Shown: positions 202-30,032 of the stretch, in pieces | Layout: each line of letters starts with the position of its first letter | Position numbering within the stretch: the stretch's first letter is position 1 | From: Natronococcus sp. CG52 | GTDB taxonomy: Archaea; Halobacteriota; Halobacteria; Halobacteriales; Natrialbaceae | DNA: 64,000 nt | Direction of reading: 5' to 3' | NCBI RefSeq assembly: GCF_023913515.1 | Contig: NZ_CP099391.1 | Span: 2,728,001-2,792,000 of the forward strand | The notes under the pieces: model-generated | What the model was told of the DNA's origin: nothing | Databases searched by the model: none | What the model saw: the letters and a program-made list of their open reading frames with translations, nothing else | Made by a program: the position numbers and the translations under genes

Positions 202-1179
202 ATGACTCCGAACGTTCTGGTCGCCGGCGAGACGCTGATCGACTTCCTCCCCGAACGACCCGGCCCGATCTCGAGCGTCGAGGGCTTCGACCGACGGCCC
301 GGCGGCGCGCCCGCGAACGTCGCCGTGGCACTCGAGCGACTCGAGCGAACGCCGCTGTTCTGGACCCGCGTCGGCGACGACCCGTTCGGCCGCTACCTCC
401 GGGAGACGATCGACGGACACGGTCTTCCGGACCGGTTCGTCGAACTCGATCCCGACGCGAAGACGACGCTCGCGTTCGTCACCCACGACGAGACCGGCGA
501 TCGCGAGTTCTCCTTCTACCGCGACGGAACGGCAGACACCCGCCTCGAACCCGGCCGGATCGACGACGCAACCCTCGAAAACCTCGAGTGGGTCCACGCC
601 GGCGGGGTCGCCCTCTCGAGCGGCTCCTCGCGGGACGCCACGCTGGACCTGCTCGAGCGCGCCGCCGACCGGGGCTGTACGGTCTCGTTCGATCCCAACG
701 CCAGGCCGGAGCTGTGGCCCGACGAGGAGGCGTTCCGAAACGTCGTCCGGGACGCCCTCGAGCACGTCGGCGTCCTGAAAGCGGCCGAGGAGGAGCTCGA
801 GGCGCTCGGCTTCGAGGGAGCTGACGTCGAGGAACTGGCTCGCGAGGCCCTCGAGTTCGGACCCGCCACCGTCTTCGCCACTCGAGGCGACGAGGGGGCG
901 ATCGCCGTCGCCGGGGACGACGCACCCTGGTCGGGAACGGCCAGCCACCCCGGCTACGAGGCCGACGTCGTCGACACGACCGGCGCGGGCGACGCGTTCG
1001 TCGCCGGAACGATCGCCGCGCTCTCCGACGGGCAGGATCTCGAGGAGACGCTCGCGTTCGCCAACGCCGTCGGCGCGAGCGCGACGACCGCCCCGGGCGC
1101 GATGACGGCGCTCCCGGATCGCGAATCCGTGCAGACGATCAGGGAGAACGAGGCGTCGAAAGCCGATTCGGATACCTGA
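202..1179 (+). CDS. PfkB-family sugar kinase (fructokinase-like)
   Basis: A 325-residue ATP-dependent sugar kinase of the ribokinase/PfkB family, predicted to phosphorylate a hexose or ketose in the cytoplasm. The N-terminal glycine-rich signature GGAPANVA is at about residues 34-41. The C-terminal nucleotide and catalytic signature DTTGAGDAF is at 258-266, with Asp264 the expected catalytic base. Length is normal for fructokinases. CTTATC about 27 bases before the ATG may be a TATA-like box, suggesting a leaderless transcript. It lies upstream of an ABC sugar importer but in its own unit. Substrate cannot be read from sequence; fructokinase or 2-keto-3-deoxygluconate kinase are both possible. 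Confidence 0.88.
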   Translation: MTPNVLVAGETLIDFLPERPGPISSVEGFDRRPGGAPANVAVALERLERTPLFWTRVGDDPFGRYLRETIDGHGLPDRFVELDPDAKTTLAFVTHDETGDREFSFYRDGTADTRLEPGRIDDATLENLEWVHAGGVALSSGSSRDATLDLLERAADRGCTVSFDPNARPELWPDEEAFRNVVRDALEHVGVLKAAEEELEALGFEGADVEELAREALEFGPATVFATRGDEGAIAVAGDDAPWSGTASHPGYEADVVDTTGAGDAFVAGTIAALSDGQDLEETLAFANAVGASATTAPGAMTALPDRESVQTIRENEASKADSDT

Positions 1180-1275
1180 AGGGTCGTAGACGGCGCTCGG
1201 TGCAGCGGTACTCGTCGTGATAGGTTTCAGTATCCGAACGCGAAGTATTTACGAAGTACCGTTCAATCATCGAAC

Positions 1276-1494
1276 GTGTCGATCGCGCAGATTCGGTGGA
1301 CCGTTCCGAGATCGTACGCGATTTTGCTCGGTGCCGCCCTCACCGCGAGTTTCGCGTACGCCGTATTCGTGAGGCAGTTGCTTCTCTGGCTGTTCGGCGT
1401 CGTGGCGCTGGCTACGTTCGTCCTCTCGGTGTGCGTCGTCTATCTCTTCTATCGGCTCGTGGTCGCCGTCGAGCGGATCGCTAACGGGTCGTAA
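1276..1494 (+). CDS. Small two-helix membrane protein
   Basis: A 72-residue protein beginning at a GTG. It has two hydrophobic helices, roughly residues 14-32 and 36-62, with a short basic N-terminus and a polar tail. An AT-rich stretch (AGTATTTACG) lies about 25-30 bases upstream and could serve as promoter. I do not recognise a family. It sits alone between the sugar kinase and the aldo/keto reductase, with codon use like its neighbours. Confidence 0.6.
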   Translation: MSIAQIRWTVPRSYAILLGAALTASFAYAVFVRQLLLWLFGVVALATFVLSVCVVYLFYRLVVAVERIANGS

Positions 1495-1575
1495 CGTGCG
1501 GTCTCGAGCCGCCAGGTGACGGTTTTCCGCGCCGACCGGCCGTTTTAGGCTGACGGCGGGAGAAGGACCGCTCGT

Positions 1576-2571
1576 ATGAGCGACGACAAAATGGAGTACA
1601 CCCGACTCGGATCGACCGGCCTCGAGGTCTCGCGGTTCTGCCTCGGCTGTATGAACTTCGGCGGCGAGCAGCCGTGGATGCTCGACGACGAGGAGCGCAG
1701 CCGCGAACTCATCGACCGCGCGCTCGACCTCGGCATCAACTTCTTCGACACGGCGAACGTCTACTCGCACGGCGAGAGCGAGGAAATCCTCGGTCGGGCG
1801 ATCACCGACTACGACCGGGACGAGCTGGTGATCGCGACGAAGGTCTACGGTGACATGGGCGACGGGCCGAACAGGCGGGGGCTGTCCCGAAAGCACATCT
1901 TCGACCAGTGTCGGGCGAGTCTCGAGCGACTCGGCCTCGACTACGTCGACCTCTACCAGATCCACCGGTTCGACGACGAGACCCCGATCGAGGAGACGCT
2001 GTCGGCGCTCGACTCGCTGGTCGAGGAGGGGCTCGTCCGGTACGTCGGGGCGAGCACGATGCCGGCCTGGAAGTTCGCGAAACTGCTGTACACCGCCGAC
2101 GTGGAGAACTACGAGCGGTTCGTCTGTATGCAGCCGGAGTACAACGCCGTCGACCGCCACGAGGAGGCGAACCTCCTGCCGCTGTGTGCCGACGAGGGGA
2201 TCGGCGTCATCCCCTGGTCGCCGCTAGCCGGCGGCTTCCTCACGGGGAAGTACGACCGCGACGACGACGATCCCGACGGCGACGTCCGCGCCGCGACCGA
2301 CGAGTACACGCGGGAGCGGTTCGCCGAAGAAAACTGGGAGGTCCTCGAGGCGATCCGCGAGGTCGCCGACGAGGTCGACGCGAGTGCCGCGCAGGTGAGC
2401 CTCGCCTGGCTGCTCCACCGGGACGTCGTCGACGCGCCGATCATCGGTCCGAAGTCGATCGACCACCTCGAGGAGAACGTCGGCGCGCTCGAGGTGTCAC
2501 TCACCGACGAACAACTCGAGCGCATCGAGGCCCCGAAGACGCCGCGCTGGCCCGCGCCGGGGAAGGACTGA
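1576..2571 (+). CDS. Aldo/keto reductase
   Basis: A 331-residue NADPH-dependent aldo/keto reductase with a TIM-barrel fold, of the YajO/Tas-like group, predicted to reduce aldehydes or keto-sugars in the cytoplasm. The catalytic tetrad is visible: Asp58 and Tyr63 in DTANVY, Lys89 in IATKVYG and His130 in YQIHRF. The C-terminal IIGPKS segment matches the cofactor phosphate-binding region. The stop codon runs directly into a long inverted repeat that separates it from a convergent gene. The neighbouring sugar transport genes make a sugar-derived substrate plausible, but this is inference. Confidence 0.9.
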   Translation: MSDDKMEYTRLGSTGLEVSRFCLGCMNFGGEQPWMLDDEERSRELIDRALDLGINFFDTANVYSHGESEEILGRAITDYDRDELVIATKVYGDMGDGPNRRGLSRKHIFDQCRASLERLGLDYVDLYQIHRFDDETPIEETLSALDSLVEEGLVRYVGASTMPAWKFAKLLYTADVENYERFVCMQPEYNAVDRHEEANLLPLCADEGIGVIPWSPLAGGFLTGKYDRDDDDPDGDVRAATDEYTRERFAEENWEVLEAIREVADEVDASAAQVSLAWLLHRDVVDAPIIGPKSIDHLEENVGALEVSLTDEQLERIEAPKTPRWPAPGKD

Positions 2572-2652
2572 TACGGTTTGCTGTAACGAGTTCCCGGCCC
2601 AACCGCAGGACGGTTCGCGGTTGTGCCGGAACTGACGTACAGCAGTCCGTAT
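2571..2652. repeat. Long imperfect palindrome between convergent genes
   Basis: Two 36-base arms (2571-2606 and 2617-2652) are imperfect inverted copies around a 10-base loop. The outer ends ATACGG/CCGTAT, the block TGCTGTA/TACAGCA, AGTTCC/GGAACT and the inner AACCGC/GCGGTT all pair. It fills the whole gap between the aldo/keto reductase stop and the convergent gene's stop. It could act as a bidirectional terminator or be a copy of a dispersed intergenic palindromic element. No other copy was noticed in this window. Confidence 0.75.
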
Positions 2653-2656
2653 GAGG

Positions 2657-3490
2657 TCACTCGAAGACGGCGAACTGGGCCCGACAGGAGGGACAGCGGA
2701 GAACGGTTCTGGGAGCCTGCGACGCCGACCGGGGCGTTCCGCAGCACCCGTGTTGAGGTCCTTCGACGAGTGCTTCCTCGCACTCGGGACAGGTCTCGAG
2801 GAACGTACACAGCGGCCTCGCGGCGAGCCGGCGGAGCTCTCGCGGAGCACCGACGTCCGCCAGGGCGTAGACCGCGGCGACTTCGGCGACGGCGACCGGG
2901 CGCTGGAGCCACAGTTCGTCGGTCGCAGTGCTCGACTCACCCTCGAGAACGACGTGCGTGCGTCCGCGCGAGGTGACGATCGATCGGTCGACCGCTTCAG
3001 TCACGATGCTGGCGGTTGCGTCCGCGAGGTTGCGGTCGCTCTCGGCGGCGAGATCTGCCATCTCCTCGTGCCACCGTCGCTCGAACGACCGCGAGAGGAA
3101 CAGTTGATCCGTCTCCTCGTCGACCTCGATCACCCCGTTTTCGACCAGCGCCGCGAGGACGGCCTCGCCGTCGGTCGACCGTTCGACCGCCGCATCGGCC
3201 GTGAGACCGTCGGCGAGCGATCCACCCTCGGCCTCCGGTTCGTCGTGGAACGGATCCCATGGAAGGGCCGCGACCAGCCGCGGAGCGAACTCGGGGGTGT
3301 ACGGGACGAGGTAGCCGCGGAGCCAGATGCCGGCCGCGCCGAGCGTCGCCACGGCGACCGCCAGCGGCGGGGAGACGATCGCGACCGCGATCGAGGCGAT
3401 TCCGAGAAGGACGGCGTTTACGACCGTGCAGGGCCAACAGCGGTTCTCGCCCGTGTACCGGGACCGTCTGATCCTGGAGAACGCCGACAT
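2657..3490 (-). CDS. Membrane protein with C-terminal cysteine-pair (zinc-ribbon-like) region
   Basis: A 277-residue protein of unknown function. The chosen ATG gives a start MSAFSRIRRSRYTGENRCWPC; the longer frame upstream is Arg/Ser-rich and looks non-coding. The N-terminus has a Cys-Trp-Pro-Cys motif followed by two hydrophobic helices at about residues 25-65. The middle is an acidic soluble domain. The C-terminus carries cysteine pairs (CPECEE, CCG, CPSC) that resemble a zinc ribbon. It is convergent with the aldo/keto reductase. I recognise it only as a haloarchaeal conserved-type protein. Confidence 0.72.
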   Translation of the reverse strand: MSAFSRIRRSRYTGENRCWPCTVVNAVLLGIASIAVAIVSPPLAVAVATLGAAGIWLRGYLVPYTPEFAPRLVAALPWDPFHDEPEAEGGSLADGLTADAAVERSTDGEAVLAALVENGVIEVDEETDQLFLSRSFERRWHEEMADLAAESDRNLADATASIVTEAVDRSIVTSRGRTHVVLEGESSTATDELWLQRPVAVAEVAAVYALADVGAPRELRRLAARPLCTFLETCPECEEALVEGPQHGCCGTPRSASQAPRTVLRCPSCRAQFAVFE

Positions 3491-3901
3491 TGCACTCTCG
3501 TTTCGGAGGTGACAACTTGAGCGTTCCGTCCACGCGAATCCCCGCCGGCGCGGTCGCGTGAATCGGGGAGCGATACCTGGAGAACGATTGTACACGGGAT
3601 TACCGGTTCCCGCGTCGCCGACCGACGACGTCCGCCGGGACCTCGAGACGCGAGCGTTCGTCGAACGGATCGACGCCGCCGCGGTAATACGTGATTTCGG
3701 GCACCGCCTGTCTAGCAACTGGTTTCGCTCGTCGACGGTCACGACGATCGACTCCGATATCGCCTATTACCGCTCACTCGAACCGACGAGATCCCGTCGA
3801 ACGCCGCCGGCGCCGTCCGGTTTTTCGAATCGCACGCCTAGTCACAACAACTGTAGTAAACACCCATAATGATAAATAGTAATAGTTCGTTATTCCGGCT
3901 G
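3491..3901. promoter_or_regulatory. Intergenic region with promoter of the ABC importer operon
   Basis: About 410 bases separate the divergent membrane-protein gene from the importer operon. No convincing gene is visible. Near the right end the DNA becomes AT-rich, with a TATA-like ATAAATA at 3872-3878 centred 27 bases before the ATG at 3902. This fits a leaderless haloarchaeal promoter. It also argues against the in-frame ATG at 3869, which would lie within the promoter. Confidence 0.55.
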
Positions 3902-5437
3902 ATGCATGGGGATAACTCACAAGGTACGGATTCACAACGCACCGGCGTGTCACGACGACGCTTCGTGAGGGGAGTCGGTGCGACCGGTGCGGCGGCCAGT
4001 TCGATCTCGGTGGCCGGCTGTACGGCCGCTCCGTGGGGGAGTAGCGACGACGACGACGTTCCCGACGGTGCCGAAGACTACGAGACGGTTGTCACCTGGC
4101 ACGGCGGTTTCGCCGACGACGAGTCCGACGACGTCAAGGACGACGTCCGGGAGGCGCTGTGGGAGGCGGGGCTGTCCGAGGATATCTACGTCGACATCCA
4201 GCAGTCGTCCGAGTCGACCGACGACGTGCTGGACCAATACACCACCTGGCTGTCGGCGGGCCGATCGGACCCCGACATCCTCAACATGGACTCGGGGTGG
4301 ACGATCCCGTTCATCGAACGCGGCCAGCTCGGCCGGATCGACGAGTACATGTCCGACGATCAGATCGCGGAGATCGAGGAGGACTACTTCCCGGCGAGCG
4401 TCGACTCCGTCCGCGACGAGGACGGCAACCTCCACGGGCTTCCGGTGTTCGTCGACCTCGGCCTGATGCACTACCGGAAGGATCTCGTCGAGGCGGCGGG
4501 CTACGATCCCGACGGAGAGGTGTGGGCGACGGAGCCGCCGACCTGGCAGGAGTTCTCGGAGGCCGTCAGCGCCGCGATGGAGGAAGACGACGAGATCGAG
4601 CAGGGCTTTACCTTCCAGGCGGACAACTACGAGGGGCTGTCCTGCTGTAACTTCAACGAGTGGATCACCACGTGGGGCGGCGCGTACTTCGGCGACCACG
4701 AGAACCTCCACGCCAACGTCGGCGACCGGCCGATCACCGTCGAGGACGAGCCGGTGCTCGACGCAATTCGAATGATCCGCACGTTCATCCACGGCAGCGA
4801 CGCCGACGACACGCTCGACGACTTCGAAGGCGGCATCTCGCCGGAGGCCGTCCTGGGGTGGAACGAGGACCCCTCGCTCGGCCCGTACGGCGACGGTCGG
4901 GTGATCGCGAACCGCAACTGGTCGTACGCGGCCGCGATGCACGCACAGGACGACGACGAGGACGGCGCCGGCTTCGGCGAGGACCACGGCGTGATGCCGA
5001 TCCCGTACGCGGTGACCGAGGACGAAGCCGAGTACGAGGGCACCGGCGGCACCGCCGCGGCGCTCGGCGGCTGGAACGCCGTTCCGAACCCGAACTCCGA
5101 AAACCTCGACGCGGTCGGCGAAGTCCTCGACGCGCTGATGGACCCCGACTTCCAGCTATTCATCTTCGAACACCCTCTGATCGGCAACATCCCGCCCCGC
5201 TCGGAGGCCCTCGAGGACGACGACGCCGAGGACATTCCCGTCATGGGCCGCTACGTCGACTCGATCAGGGTGGCCGGCGAGACCGCGACGGCGCGACCGG
5301 TCACGTCGCTCTGGCCCGACCAGTCGAGCGTGACCGCCAGTCACGTCCACTCGGCGCTTCAGGGCGACGAGACGCCGGCGGACGCGATGAGCAACCTCAC
5401 CGACGACCTCGAGCAACTCGAGCAAGAGGGGAACTAG
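3902..5437 (+). CDS. Tat lipoprotein solute-binding protein of sugar ABC importer
   Basis: A 511-residue extracellular substrate-binding protein of the CUT1 type. The N-terminus has a twin-arginine signal (SRRRFVRG) and a lipobox (SVAGC), so it is exported folded through Tat and anchored outside by a lipid on Cys. The mature part is strongly acidic and ends in a typical all-alpha C-lobe. The start at 3902 is preferred over 3869 because a TATA box overlaps the latter. It is the first gene of an operon with two permeases and an ATPase. A sugar or polyol ligand is inferred from context; the exact ligand is not visible. Confidence 0.9.
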   Translation: MHGDNSQGTDSQRTGVSRRRFVRGVGATGAAASSISVAGCTAAPWGSSDDDDVPDGAEDYETVVTWHGGFADDESDDVKDDVREALWEAGLSEDIYVDIQQSSESTDDVLDQYTTWLSAGRSDPDILNMDSGWTIPFIERGQLGRIDEYMSDDQIAEIEEDYFPASVDSVRDEDGNLHGLPVFVDLGLMHYRKDLVEAAGYDPDGEVWATEPPTWQEFSEAVSAAMEEDDEIEQGFTFQADNYEGLSCCNFNEWITTWGGAYFGDHENLHANVGDRPITVEDEPVLDAIRMIRTFIHGSDADDTLDDFEGGISPEAVLGWNEDPSLGPYGDGRVIANRNWSYAAAMHAQDDDEDGAGFGEDHGVMPIPYAVTEDEAEYEGTGGTAAALGGWNAVPNPNSENLDAVGEVLDALMDPDFQLFIFEHPLIGNIPPRSEALEDDDAEDIPVMGRYVDSIRVAGETATARPVTSLWPDQSSVTASHVHSALQGDETPADAMSNLTDDLEQLEQEGN

Positions 5438-5472
5438 CGACCCCACTCGTTTCACCACATTAGCACGTAATA

Positions 5473-6441
5473 ATGGCAACAGACAATCGGGGCGCGTCGA
5501 GCTCGACTCTTACGCGCCCGCACGTAGCCGTAGCCAACAAACTCGAGACCATCAGCGAGGACAAGTTCGCGTACTTCCTGCTGGTACCGACGTTCCTGCT
5601 GATTACGGTCGTCGCCATCTACCCGCTGCTCGAGACGTTCCGGCTGTCGATGTACGAAGACCAGCTCGGAAGCGTGGGCGTCGGTGATTTCGTCGGGCTC
5701 TCGAACTACGTCGAGGTGCTGACCGGCGCACGGGACGTCGTACTGCTGTCCGGCTTCTGGTACGGCGTCGCGATCACGCTCGGGTTCGCGCTCGCGAGCG
5801 TGTTCTTCGAGACGCTTCTCGGACTCGGAATGGCGCTCGTTCTCGACAAAGAGTTCCGCGGGCGGGCGGTCGTCCGCATGGCGATCCTCATCCCGTGGGC
5901 CGTCCCGGTCGTCATCCAGGGGATGATCTTCTACCTGATGTTCGAGCCCTCGATCGGCTTCGCGGTACGGCCACTCCAGGAGATCGGGCTGATGTCCTCG
6001 ACGCCGCTGACGACCACTCGAGACGCGCTGATCCTGCTGATCACGGCCGACGTCTGGAAGACGACGGCGTTCATGGCGCTGATCATCCTCGCCGGCCTCC
6101 AGAGCATCGATCGCAGCCTCTACGAGGTCGGCCGGGTCGCCGGCGCCACGCGCTGGCAGCGGTTCGTGATGATCACCTTCCCCCTCGTTCTGCCCGCGAT
6201 CCTCGTCGCGATGCTGTTCCGGACCCTGCAGGCGATGCAGGTGTACGGCATCGTCGTAACGATGTCGGGCTGTTCGACGGTGCCGTCGCTCACCTGCATG
6301 GTCGTCGAGACGTTCCGGGCCAACCGGTTCGCGACCTCGGCGACCGTCGCGTTCCTCACGGCGGGGATCATCTCCATCATCATCGGCATCTACCTGGTGA
6401 AGTTCGTCGACAGTCTCAGAGAGATCGGAGGTGACGTCTGA
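5473..6441 (+). CDS. ABC sugar permease 1 (MalF/UgpA-like)
   Basis: A 322-residue inner permease subunit with six or so transmembrane helices, the first at about residues 35-55. The EAA loop that docks the ATPase is visible as YEVGRVAGATRWQRF followed by PLVLPAIL. It is typical in length and order for the first CUT1 permease. Its stop overlaps the next start by one base (TGATG), indicating translational coupling. It works with the binding protein upstream and the second permease and ATPase downstream. Confidence 0.9.
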   Translation: MATDNRGASSSTLTRPHVAVANKLETISEDKFAYFLLVPTFLLITVVAIYPLLETFRLSMYEDQLGSVGVGDFVGLSNYVEVLTGARDVVLLSGFWYGVAITLGFALASVFFETLLGLGMALVLDKEFRGRAVVRMAILIPWAVPVVIQGMIFYLMFEPSIGFAVRPLQEIGLMSSTPLTTTRDALILLITADVWKTTAFMALIILAGLQSIDRSLYEVGRVAGATRWQRFVMITFPLVLPAILVAMLFRTLQAMQVYGIVVTMSGCSTVPSLTCMVVETFRANRFATSATVAFLTAGIISIIIGIYLVKFVDSLREIGGDV

Positions 6442-25451: not shown

Positions 25452-26849
25452 ATGGCGACAGGCTCCGAACCCGAGAGTTTCGGTTCGTTCTTTCGGCAGT
25501 ACACGAAGACGTGGATGCACGCAGTTGCGACGGCCGGGCTCACCGCGTTCGGGACGCTCACCATCGTCCACCGCGGGTTCGTCGTCCTGGCGCTCGCCTC
25601 CTATATCATCCCGCCTATCGTCCTCTACCTCTCTCGAAAGCGGGGCGGCTCGAGCGACGACCCGAGGACGCCGACCGATGCAGCACTGGCCGACCGGGAC
25701 GAAGCCGACGACGGACCGTCGTCGACATCGGACGCCGATTCGCTCGAGTCGTCGGCGGCGGAGGGCGAACCGGAACCCGTGACGGAAGCGGAGCCTGCGA
25801 CCGAGCCAAAACCGACGGTCGAAACGAGAGGCGAACCAGCGTCGTCGGCCGAGCCGGAGGACGAGCCGACGACCGAAGCCGAACCGGAGAGGGAACCGGT
25901 GACCGAAGCCGAACCGAACGCCGAGTCGACCGAGTCGGCCATCGATTCGGACGCCGACGACGAATCCGACGCCGAGCCGAACTGGCAGCCAGTCGACGCG
26001 CCGACCGACGCGACCCTGCTCGACGCCGCGATCGCGTCGTCGGGTGCGATCGCCGTCGGCGACGGCGGGATCGTCCTCGAGCGCGACGACGAACGCTGGG
26101 ACGTGCTCATCGAGGACGGCCCCGCCGCGCAGGGACAGACGCTCCGCGGCGTCGACGCGACGGACGACGGAGCGATCGCCTGGGTCGCCGGCGACGGCGG
26201 CGCAGTCGGTCGGTTCGACTGCTCGTCGGGTCGACACACGGACTACTCGGCGCCCGACGGGCAGACGAACAACCTCTCCGGACTCGCCGTCGCCGGATCG
26301 AGCGGCGACGAGACCGTCCTCCTGATAAACGGCTCGGGCGAGGTCATCCGCGGGCGCTACCGCGACGGCGATCTCGGCTGGGACGAGCCCGTGAAACCGG
26401 GGAGCGGCTCGAGCCTGAGCGACGCGACGCTCGTCGACGCGTCGGTCGGCTACTGCTGCGACACGAACGACGGCGTCTTCGAGACCGACAACGGCGGGCA
26501 GACGTTCGAGACGGTCGGGCTCGAGGGTGCCGACGGGACGCCGACCGGAATCGCCGCCGGCGAGCAGGGCGACTGCCACGTCTGTACCGACGCGGGCGTC
26601 GTCCACCGATTCGACGGCTCCACGTGGACTCCCGAACGAATCGGCGAGACGGCGCTGTCGGGGATCGCTCGAGCCGGCGAGCGACTCCTCGTCTGCGACG
26701 AGGCGGGCGATATCCACGAGCGCGCCGGACGGAGGGCCGAGTGGGAACGAGCCGACGTGAGCGCGAGCGCGGCGCTCGAGGCCGTCGCCGTCGGCGAGGA
26801 GCTGGCGGTTGCCGTCGGCAGCGAGGGAACACTGATCGAGCGACGATGA
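25452..26849 (+). CDS. Membrane-anchored beta-propeller-like protein
   Basis: A 465-residue protein. Two hydrophobic stretches at about residues 25-60 anchor it. Residues 70-180 form a low-complexity linker of repeated E-P-x-T-E-A-E-P units. Residues 180-465 contain about six repeats of the type GDGGIVLERDDERWDVL, GDGGAVGRFD and TNDGVFETDNGGQTFETV, characteristic of YCF48/BNR-like propellers. The domain probably lies on one face of the membrane; the topology is not certain. No enzyme motif is seen. A scaffold or ligand-binding role is inferred. Confidence 0.78.
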   Translation: MATGSEPESFGSFFRQYTKTWMHAVATAGLTAFGTLTIVHRGFVVLALASYIIPPIVLYLSRKRGGSSDDPRTPTDAALADRDEADDGPSSTSDADSLESSAAEGEPEPVTEAEPATEPKPTVETRGEPASSAEPEDEPTTEAEPEREPVTEAEPNAESTESAIDSDADDESDAEPNWQPVDAPTDATLLDAAIASSGAIAVGDGGIVLERDDERWDVLIEDGPAAQGQTLRGVDATDDGAIAWVAGDGGAVGRFDCSSGRHTDYSAPDGQTNNLSGLAVAGSSGDETVLLINGSGEVIRGRYRDGDLGWDEPVKPGSGSSLSDATLVDASVGYCCDTNDGVFETDNGGQTFETVGLEGADGTPTGIAAGEQGDCHVCTDAGVVHRFDGSTWTPERIGETALSGIARAGERLLVCDEAGDIHERAGRRAEWERADVSASAALEAVAVGEELAVAVGSEGTLIERR

Positions 26850-27030: not shown

Positions 27031-28746
27031 ATGCCACTCGGAGGAATTGCACTCGCGGCCGACTTCGCCATCGTCATCGTTACAGCGACGGTGCTGAGCT
27101 ACGCCGCCCGACGAACCGGACAGCCGACGCTGGTCGCGTACATTCTGACGGGAATCGTTCTCGGACCCGTCCTGCTCGGCGTCGTGACCGAAGAACAGCT
27201 CATCGAAGTGATGGCCGAACTCGGACTCGGATTTCTCCTGTTCGTACTCGGCATCGAGATGCGCTTCGATCGCATCAAGGACATCCTCAGACCGATCGTC
27301 AACATCTCGGCCGGGCAGACGCTTCTCTAGACCGCCGCGGCCTTCGGGATCGCGTTCCTGCTCGGCTTCCGCGGGATGGACGTAATTATCATCGCGCTCG
27401 CGACCGTCTTCGGCGCGACGCCGATCATCGTCAAACTGCTCGACGAGAAGGACGAGCTCAAGACGCTGCCGGGACGGATCGACATCGGCGTCCTCATCGT
27501 TCAGGACATCTACCTCGTGATCGTCCTCGCGCTGGTCGGGGCGGGTCTCGAGGGCGCAGCCGGCGAGATCCTCTTCGACGTGGCTCGCATCCTCGGGCTG
27601 ATGGCAGCGATCGGTGCCGTCTCGTACGTCGCCTACCAGTACCTGCTCCCGACGCTGCTCGCGTCGGTCGCCAGCGACCGAAACGTCCTGTTCGTCGGAC
27701 TGGCGTGGGCGTTCCTCCTCATCTTCGTCGCGGAGGCGCTCGAGCTCTCCGTCGAGGTCGGCGCGTTCGCCGCCGGTCTCGCGGTCGCCTCCGAGTACCC
27801 TCACGACGTCGAGATGGTCGACGCCGTCGGCTACCTCGAGGACTTCTTCACGCCGATAGTCTTCATCACGCTCGGCGCACTCGTCTCGATACCGACGGTT
27901 GAGACCCTCGGCATCGGCGCCCTGCTCCTGGTCGCCGTCTTCGTGCTCAATCCGACGGCCACCTACCTTGTGCTTCGCTGGCGGGGGTACGCCTCCCGGA
28001 CGGCGACGCTGACCGGCTACAACCTCGATCAGGTGAGCGAGTTCGCGCTCATCATCGCGATCGAGGCACTGGTCGCCGGCATTCTCGTTCCGGAGCTGTT
28101 CGACGCGATCGTACTCGCGGCGATCGTCACCATGCTCGGCTCAACGGTCACCGAGCGCTACGCGGAAACCGGCTTTCAGCGCCTCGTCGAGCGCGACGTC
28201 TTCGAGAGCGACATCGAACGGGTGCGTCGGCGGAGCCGGGTGAGCGACGATCTCGCAGCCCACGTCGTCGTGACGGGCTACGACCGCGAGGGACAGCAGG
28301 TGGTCGAAGCCTGCGAGTCGGTCGATCAGCCGTACGTCGTCCTCGAGAGCGATCCGACTCGCGAGGAAACGGTCAAAGATCACTGCGAGAACTACGTCCT
28401 CGGTGACGTGATGACGACGTCGACGTGGACGGTCGCCAACGCCGAGGAGGCGGGACTGATCGTCGGCACCGTCGCCCGGGAATCCTGGGCGGAACAGATC
28501 CTCGCCCTCGATACCGACGCCGACATCATGGTGCGGGCGGTCGACGTCGAGTCCGGTGCGGACCTGCTCGAGCAGGGTGCGCTCTTCGTCGCGATTCCGG
28601 ACGAACTGGCCGCCGAACGCCTCGAGGATCGGGTCGAGGCGGTGCTGACGGGCGAGGCGAGTCGAGAGGAGCTTCGAGCGCAAGGCGAAGAACGTCTCGA
28701 ACGTGCCGTCGAGTACGGCCCGAGCGACGTCCAGCGGCTCCGCTGA
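27031..28746 (+). pseudogene. Kef-type CPA2 cation/proton antiporter with in-frame TAG
   Basis: A single reading frame would encode about 571 residues: a CPA2 membrane domain (about 11 helices) and a C-terminal RCK/TrkA-N domain (HVVVTGYDREGQQVVEA, VLGDVMTTSTW). A TAG at 27328-27330 interrupts it after ISAGQTLL, where relatives read a Gln (GQTLLQT), so one C-to-T change explains it. Coding resumes in the same frame at once and could restart at ATG 27376. The gene is a recent nonsense pseudogene, or the stop is read through, or it is a sequencing error. Product would export K+ or Na+ in exchange for H+. Confidence 0.8.
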
Positions 28747-28763: not shown

Positions 28764-30032
28764 TCAGCTATCGACGAGCCGATTCATCACCGGCGTCGCC
28801 AGGATACCGTGGCCGACGACCGAGACGAGGACGACGAGCCCGGCGATCGCCCAGAGCACCTCAGCCTTGCGAAACGGCGCGGCGTTCAATCCCCACGAGA
28901 GGTAGAAGAACGTCCCGATTCCGCGAATTCCGAAGGTCGATATGATCGCTCGCTTACGAAACGCGAGGTCGGAACCGAAAAAGCCGATCAGCCCCGCAAG
29001 CGGACGAACCAGAACGAGGATGCCGAGCGTGACGACGACCGCCTCGAGCGTGAGCGGCGCGAGCAGTCCGTCGGCGAGCGCGCCCCCGAACAGGACCATA
29101 ATCGCGACCATCAGCAGGTGTTCGGCCATCTCCGCGACGCCGTGGAGCGCGTCGTGGTACTCGTGGCTGCGCTCGTACTCGCGGAGCGTCAGCGCGGCGA
29201 CGAACACCGCGATGAAGCCGTAGCCGCCGACGAGTTCGACGGCCGCGAACGCGATCAGCGTTCCCGCGACGGCCTCGAGTCCCTGGACCGACCGCGAGAG
29301 CGGTGACTCCGCGGAGAACCGGAAGACGACGACGGCGACCAGCCAGCCGATGAGGACCCCGCCGATCACGCCGACGACGATCTTGTAGACGACGTAGACG
29401 AGGAGCCACTGGCCGAGCCACCGACTCGGCGCATAGCCGACGAACGTGAGGAGAACGGCCAGGTAGGTGAACGGAAACGCGAGCCCGTCGTTGAGACCCG
29501 CTTCGGAGGTCAGCGCGAACCGAACGTCGTCAGTCCCGTCGTCGCCGTCCGTCTCGCTCCCCGCCGAGTTCGACGGCGAGTTCCGGCCGGGCGGTCCGAC
29601 CTGCACCTCGGAGGCGAGGACCGGATCGGTCGGGGCGATCGCTGCCCCGAGCAACAGCGCCGTCGGGAGCAGGAGTCCGGCGACGCCCCAACCCAGCAGC
29701 GCCGCGCCGGCGATCGACAGCGGCATCGTGACCGCGAGCAGCCGCGCCGTCGACGCCCAGGCGGGCCAGCCGACGCGACGGTCGATTTTCAGCCCCGCAC
29801 CCATCAGCGCGACGATCACCCCGAGCTCGGTCAGCCGCTCGGCCTCGTCGGCGTGCTCGATCGGGTCGGGATAGGGCAGTTCCGGCACGAGCGTGAACGC
29901 GACCGCGCCCAGGACAAGGTAGAAGATCGGCAAGGAGAGCGCGCGCTCCTCGAGAATGCGCGTCAGCACGACGAGCGCGAGAATCGCGACTCCGGCGAGC
30001 AGCAGGCCGGCGACGAAGCCGTCGAAGACCAT
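28764..30032 (-). CDS. NhaP-type Na+(K+)/H+ antiporter (CPA1)
   Basis: A 422-residue cation/proton antiporter with about 12 membrane helices. Characteristic motifs are present: APTDPVLAS in helix 5 and the paired ND of SEAGLNDGLAFPF in helix 6, which bind the ion. An acidic, Ser/Asp-rich loop is inserted between them, near residues 150-168. No cytoplasmic RCK domain is attached. It is convergent with the broken Kef-type gene, so the two antiporters sit tail to tail. Confidence 0.92.
   Translation of the reverse strand: MVFDGFVAGLLLAGVAILALVVLTRILEERALSLPIFYLVLGAVAFTLVPELPYPDPIEHADEAERLTELGVIVALMGAGLKIDRRVGWPAWASTARLLAVTMPLSIAGAALLGWGVAGLLLPTALLLGAAIAPTDPVLASEVQVGPPGRNSPSNSAGSETDGDDGTDDVRFALTSEAGLNDGLAFPFTYLAVLLTFVGYAPSRWLGQWLLVYVVYKIVVGVIGGVLIGWLVAVVVFRFSAESPLSRSVQGLEAVAGTLIAFAAVELVGGYGFIAVFVAALTLREYERSHEYHDALHGVAEMAEHLLMVAIMVLFGGALADGLLAPLTLEAVVVTLGILVLVRPLAGLIGFFGSDLAFRKRAIISTFGIRGIGTFFYLSWGLNAAPFRKAEVLWAIAGLVVLVSVVGHGILATPVMNRLVDS

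Follow-up and report, generated by a model that had tools for sequence, protein, structure and literature searches.

An interrupted antiporter frame and its surroundings

On the window studied here, a stretch of 64,000 nucleotides from Natronococcus sp. CG52, the gene of interest is a hybrid of two antiporter genes, kef-A and kef-B, on the plus strand at 27031..28746, and translation, Pfam and alignment all show it as one frame interrupted by a TAG. It runs from ATG 27031 to the TGA at 28744-28746 and makes 571 codons if read through, with the sequence and translation giving a single internal stop (from 27031 the translation reads MPLGGIALAADF...GQTLL*TAAAFG...). This stop is the TAG at 27328..27330 on the plus strand, codon 100 of the hybrid frame. 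The in-frame TAG and the frame open behind it to 28746 had been described in an original prediction, and both are borne out by sequence and translation. Its view that the TAG stands for a Gln codon also agrees with the relatives, as codon 100 is CAG in the two closest kef-A genes (genomes G003 and G004). The assignment to the Kef-type antiporters with RCK domain is right as well: Na_H_Exchanger (PF00999) spans the stop in one match across the TAG (167.9 bits; profile positions 2-83 before it and 90-369 after it), and a TrkA_N (RCK) domain is matched downstream in the kef-B-derived part (39.9 bits). An uninterrupted frame, as expected for a CPA2/Kef-type antiporter, is not found at the hybrid locus because of the TAG, and judged by its sequence the locus appears to be a relict and not a working member of this family, unless the TAG is read through.

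Among 47 gene-like ORFs of relatives having a homologue in the window, selected with a codon-composition filter since the unfiltered stop list is dominated by antisense ORFs, only the kef hybrid has a stop well inside the homologous frame; just one further ORF carries a stop, 4 residues before its end. Genome-wide, internal stops are found in none of the 85 ABC-ATPase matches, in none of the 34 MFS matches and in 1 of 9 Na_H_Exchanger matches, which is the hybrid itself. Being unique among the 47 ORFs, and with no stops in the ABC-ATPase and MFS controls, the TAG is an observation beyond chance.

Convergent to the hybrid lies an intact NhaP-type Na_H_Exchanger gene (28764..30032, minus strand, by Pfam), and the same gene adjoins the intact A-B pairs of Natronococcus pandeyae and Natronoglomus mannanivorans, so it is an old neighbour and the proposal that it compensates for the broken gene is unsupported. 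Upstream, a conserved hypothetical gene of 465 aa (25452..26849, plus strand) forms the left synteny boundary by collinearity with relatives; its homologue in N. pandeyae has 536 aa, and the difference of about 71 residues falls in an acidic low-complexity stretch. The flanks are collinear with N. pandeyae (G004), and what the window lacks is limited to the A/B interior and a TrkA-like gene. The TrkA-like gene stands 3' of kef-B in G003 and G004 (80% identical mutually), its best match in the genome studied here is 34%, and no close copy is present in G015 or G117; given this absence in G015 and G117 too, it is simpler, though not certain, to assume that the window lineage lost the gene. In N. 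pandeyae its product (L033:6695-8320) has two TrkA_N and two TrkA_C stretches. As for other Kef-type paralogues, the best other match in this genome is 29% over part of the query, and several Natronococcus genomes have about 8-14 matches. A mobile or viral origin was considered and rejected, no viral relative being found; haloarchaeal plasmids do carry 'cation:proton antiporter' relatives, but these are all more distant.

A deletion hybrid of two tandem paralogues

Adjacent kef-A and kef-B genes, in this order, are present in four genomes, namely G003 (a Natronococcus relative), G004 (N. pandeyae LS1_42, L033:2965-6389), G015 (Natronoglomus mannanivorans, L035 around 2965-6416) and G117, and also in a Natronomonas MAG (L034 around 457-3879). 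In all four pairs examined at base level (G003, G004, G015 and the Natronomonas MAG), the stop of A overlaps the start of B, with the SD-like motif GGAGGTG shortly before. This layout is typical of the termination-reinitiation pairs of Haloferax, since in Haloferax volcanii termination-reinitiation is common for overlapping gene pairs (PMC6728339). Judging from this arrangement, the two products of the intact pair may be antiporter subunits that are translated together and possibly interact, or the pair may form a co-expressed unit; a literature search for haloarchaeal Kef tandem pairs and for fusions of them found no paper. The pair of N. pandeyae LS1_42 occupies the same chromosomal place as the window gene, with protein identities of about 95% (A part) and 90% (B part). 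However, it consists of two complete genes, 582 and 559 codons long, the stop of the first overlapping the start of the second, while the window has one fused frame with a TAG.

The window gene is therefore not an ordinary Kef antiporter with a stop, but a deletion hybrid of the two tandem paralogues. Residues 1-243 are kef-A-like, with about 95% aa identity to kef-A of G003 and G004 and about 20-30% to kef-B, and residues 248-571 are kef-B-like with about 90% protein identity. In nucleotides, the kef-A-derived part (27031..27756, plus strand, by aa identity) contains antiporter helices including the QD ion-site motif, and the kef-B-derived part (27762..28746, plus strand, by Pfam and alignment) contains the last antiporter helices and RCK/TrkA_N. 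A search with the downstream part gives relatives at 72% and 64% overall identity, against about 85-90% in the surrounding DNA. In the alignment with these kef-B relatives, identity is about 90% over roughly the last 320 residues, and the first 245 are related at family level only, so the overall values are oddly low because only the 3' part derives from kef-B. A separate search with the first 99 residues leads, at 94% identity, to another gene of the same relatives, located directly upstream.

The identity switches from kef-A to kef-B within five bases, the GTCGG at 27757..27761 (plus strand), which lies inside the conserved VGAF(I/A)AGL motif; base 27756 is the last one diagnostic of kef-A, and 27762 the first one diagnostic of kef-B. 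In G003 as in G004, 1706 bp separate the homologous junction positions, showing that this much DNA, comprising the C-terminus of A and the N-terminus of B, was removed from the window copy. An independent blast comparison of the window with the relatives places the break at this point too, with flanks otherwise collinear. The junction region is one of the two most A/B-similar stretches (75% over 36 nt vs a mean of 47%), which fits a homology-assisted deletion. Near the junction one Val codon has been lost after 27696 (its place is 27694..27699, plus strand, from the alignment with relatives), the relatives having GTC-GTC-GGA and the window GTC-GGA, a change unique to the window copy.

Deletion between tandem paralogues can yield fusion genes. 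The window hybrid resembles these in having an in-frame junction at homologous positions and in the reduction of two copies to one, while it differs from them in the very short junction homology and the early stop. It is a single copy with its 5' part from the upstream gene, its 3' part from the downstream gene and a homologous junction, as a hybrid formed in this way should be. No full-length kef-A or kef-B was found elsewhere in the genome; the original reading had missed that the gene is a fusion of two paralogues. Across 392 genomes of the order, no close relatives of the B part are found except in the known A-B carriers.

Probable recent inactivation and its alternatives

In a three-way codon comparison of the window, G004 and G003, changes were assigned to lineages. 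The window lineage has synonymous/non-synonymous codon changes of 17/2 in the A part, 9/0 after the TAG (codons 101-243) and 15/8 in the B part, and the G004 lineage has 29/3, 15/0 and 21/5 in the same three segments; an excess of amino-acid change on the window lineage is not significant (Fisher P 0.29 overall). The 9 synonymous and 0 non-synonymous changes in codons 101-243 point to a stop that arose late, and constraint appears from these counts to have lasted through most of the period after the split, the lesions being apparently recent. The suggestion of a recent event thus agrees with the divergence before and after the TAG, which is mainly synonymous. Its companion, that the rest of the gene shows no decay, fails, since the paralogues are fused with 1706 bp missing, a codon is lost and the TrkA-like gene is absent. 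As the hybrid frame is open apart from the TAG and amino-acid change is not in significant excess, inactivation is deduced from the anatomy of the locus and not from accumulated decay.

With a probability of about three in four, we consider the gene a hybrid antiporter pseudogene that was disabled recently, in a locus on its way to being lost. Ancestral kef-A and kef-B would have overlapped stop-to-start, each encoding a CPA2 (Na_H_Exchanger + RCK) antiporter. A deletion between the homologous VGAF(I/A)AGL positions, probably by homology-assisted recombination or slippage, took out 1706 bp running from the C-terminal part of A, RCK domain included, across the overlap into the N-terminal part of B, and left an in-frame A/B fusion. 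Either after or before this deletion, codon 100 in the A part changed from CAG to TAG by a transition, which would reduce the product to a 99-residue fragment. A functional antiporter is presumably not made at the locus.

The alternative that deserves most attention, although we hold it unlikely, is that the TAG is a base-calling error and the real gene is an uninterrupted A/B hybrid antiporter, possibly functional. The assembly keeps untrimmed circular overlaps of about 35.7 kb (C1 1-35679 vs 3936275-3971974; C2 1-35690 vs about 357262-392952; L138-L145). Through this duplication in C1 and C2 genes are counted twice. The overlap copies differ by 10 substitutions and 29 gapped bases in C1 and by 7 and 21 in C2, the substitutions being nearly all transitions at RAGC-type or CTAG/CCAG-type sites and the gaps falling also in homopolymers; these discrepancies probably reflect long-read base-calling trouble at modified motifs. 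CTAG is m4C-methylated in Haloferax volcanii (PMC4389544), and the window TAG sits in a CTAG tetramer; besides, purifying selection seems intact across the frame. However, the sole codon-boundary C/T discrepancy (CTAG vs CCAG, in C2), which alters a stop within a long open frame, is at a likely natural stop that separates a glycoside hydrolase gene from dgoD. Because relatives have a gene boundary there, the copy with TAG is probably right and the other copy has lost its CTAG by error, so that the direction seen is loss and not gain of CTAG; for the same reason we rejected this discrepancy as proof of false TAGs here. The interior is also far better than the overlaps, with 0 frameshifts in 47 genes, and against G004 there is no asymmetry of AAGC/GAGC (11 to 10) or CTAG/CCAG (1 to 1). 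CTAG is about five-fold rarer in the window than expected (17 seen vs 94), so a newly made CTAG is unusual, which alone is uninformative on an error. In any case, the question of an error leaves the hybrid deletion untouched.

Also doubtful, in our view, is that the A/B hybrid once was, or still is, a working chimera, with the TAG an error or very recent. The frame shares with the KefC/CPA2 family the antiporter fold across the stop and the RCK domain, and it is alignable over the transporter and RCK parts with the KefC structures 8BXG, 8BY2 and 9EMB. At residues 157-160 the frame reads VQDI and so retains the QD ion-site motif, which in E. coli KefC is Q155-D156 (PMC11150392). Unlike KefC/CPA2 members, the window frame has halves from two paralogues, one codon missing and a stop at codon 100. 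In the 8BXG alignment the QD motif is A-derived, and the helices after the junction are B-derived, including the TM12 region which crosses TM5 at the ion site, so the chimera would join an A-derived TM5/TM6 ion-site half to a B-derived TM12 half and RCK domain. If true, it would be a natural domain-swapped Kef transporter from a heteromeric-looking gene pair. With the TAG in place, the predicted product has 99 residues and ends before the ion site, so that the B helices and the RCK domain are missing as well.

Readthrough of the TAG at a useful rate, giving the full-length hybrid protein, is quite improbable. The frame downstream of the TAG is conserved, but the recency of the TAG accounts for this equally well, and neither a CUA tRNA nor a PylS above the cut-off was found. 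The CUA anticodon is absent among the 46 ARAGORN-typed tRNAs of 47 tRNA matches, in a search which may miss intron-bearing tRNAs (tRNA-Trp was not detected), and the 47th match (L084) is by eye an intron-bearing tRNA-Gln(UUG). Loose matches to a CTA-anticodon pattern were discarded, as they are no more frequent than in a reversed-pattern control and eight of them checked with ARAGORN gave no CUA tRNA. For PylS, the sole match in the genome is below the cut-off and a similar match occurs in 13 of 14 control genomes, so the genome shows no pairing of PylS with a CUA tRNA, as pyrrolysine recoding needs. Selenocysteine and pyrrolysine are the only documented cases of archaeal stop readthrough (PMC8211752), and the CAG of the relatives means that codon 100 is no conserved recoding site.

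It is still harder to believe that two polypeptides are made by reinitiation at the next in-frame ATG (27376..27378, plus strand) and act together as a split antiporter. The distance from TAG to ATG is only 45 nt, and Haloferax volcanii commonly uses termination-reinitiation for overlapping gene pairs (PMC6728339). Yet these 45 nt are a gap and not an overlap, the break lies inside the transporter fold, and no GGAGGTG motif precedes 27376, while it is present in 4 of the 4 intact A/B overlaps examined. The restart at this Met, as originally proposed, is for that reason unlikely, and it would drop the first helices. Finally, an assembly artefact in which A and B were collapsed is barely credible in spite of other assembly errors in the genome, since A and B agree in only about 47% of aligned bases (36-nt windows) and share no identical run that reaches the length of the junction region, which makes a collapse implausible, and the fusion is in frame at homologous positions with both flanks collinear with relatives.

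Meaning for the Kef antiporters of haloarchaea

Gene loss by deletion between tandem paralogues together with a nonsense mutation is ordinary biology and not a new kind of event. What looks like a simple premature stop belongs here to a set of lesions in a locus that is being lost, and an in-frame fusion of tandem paralogues can pass as a normal full-length gene. More interesting than the pseudogene is the intact A/B pair in the relatives, which is worth an assay.
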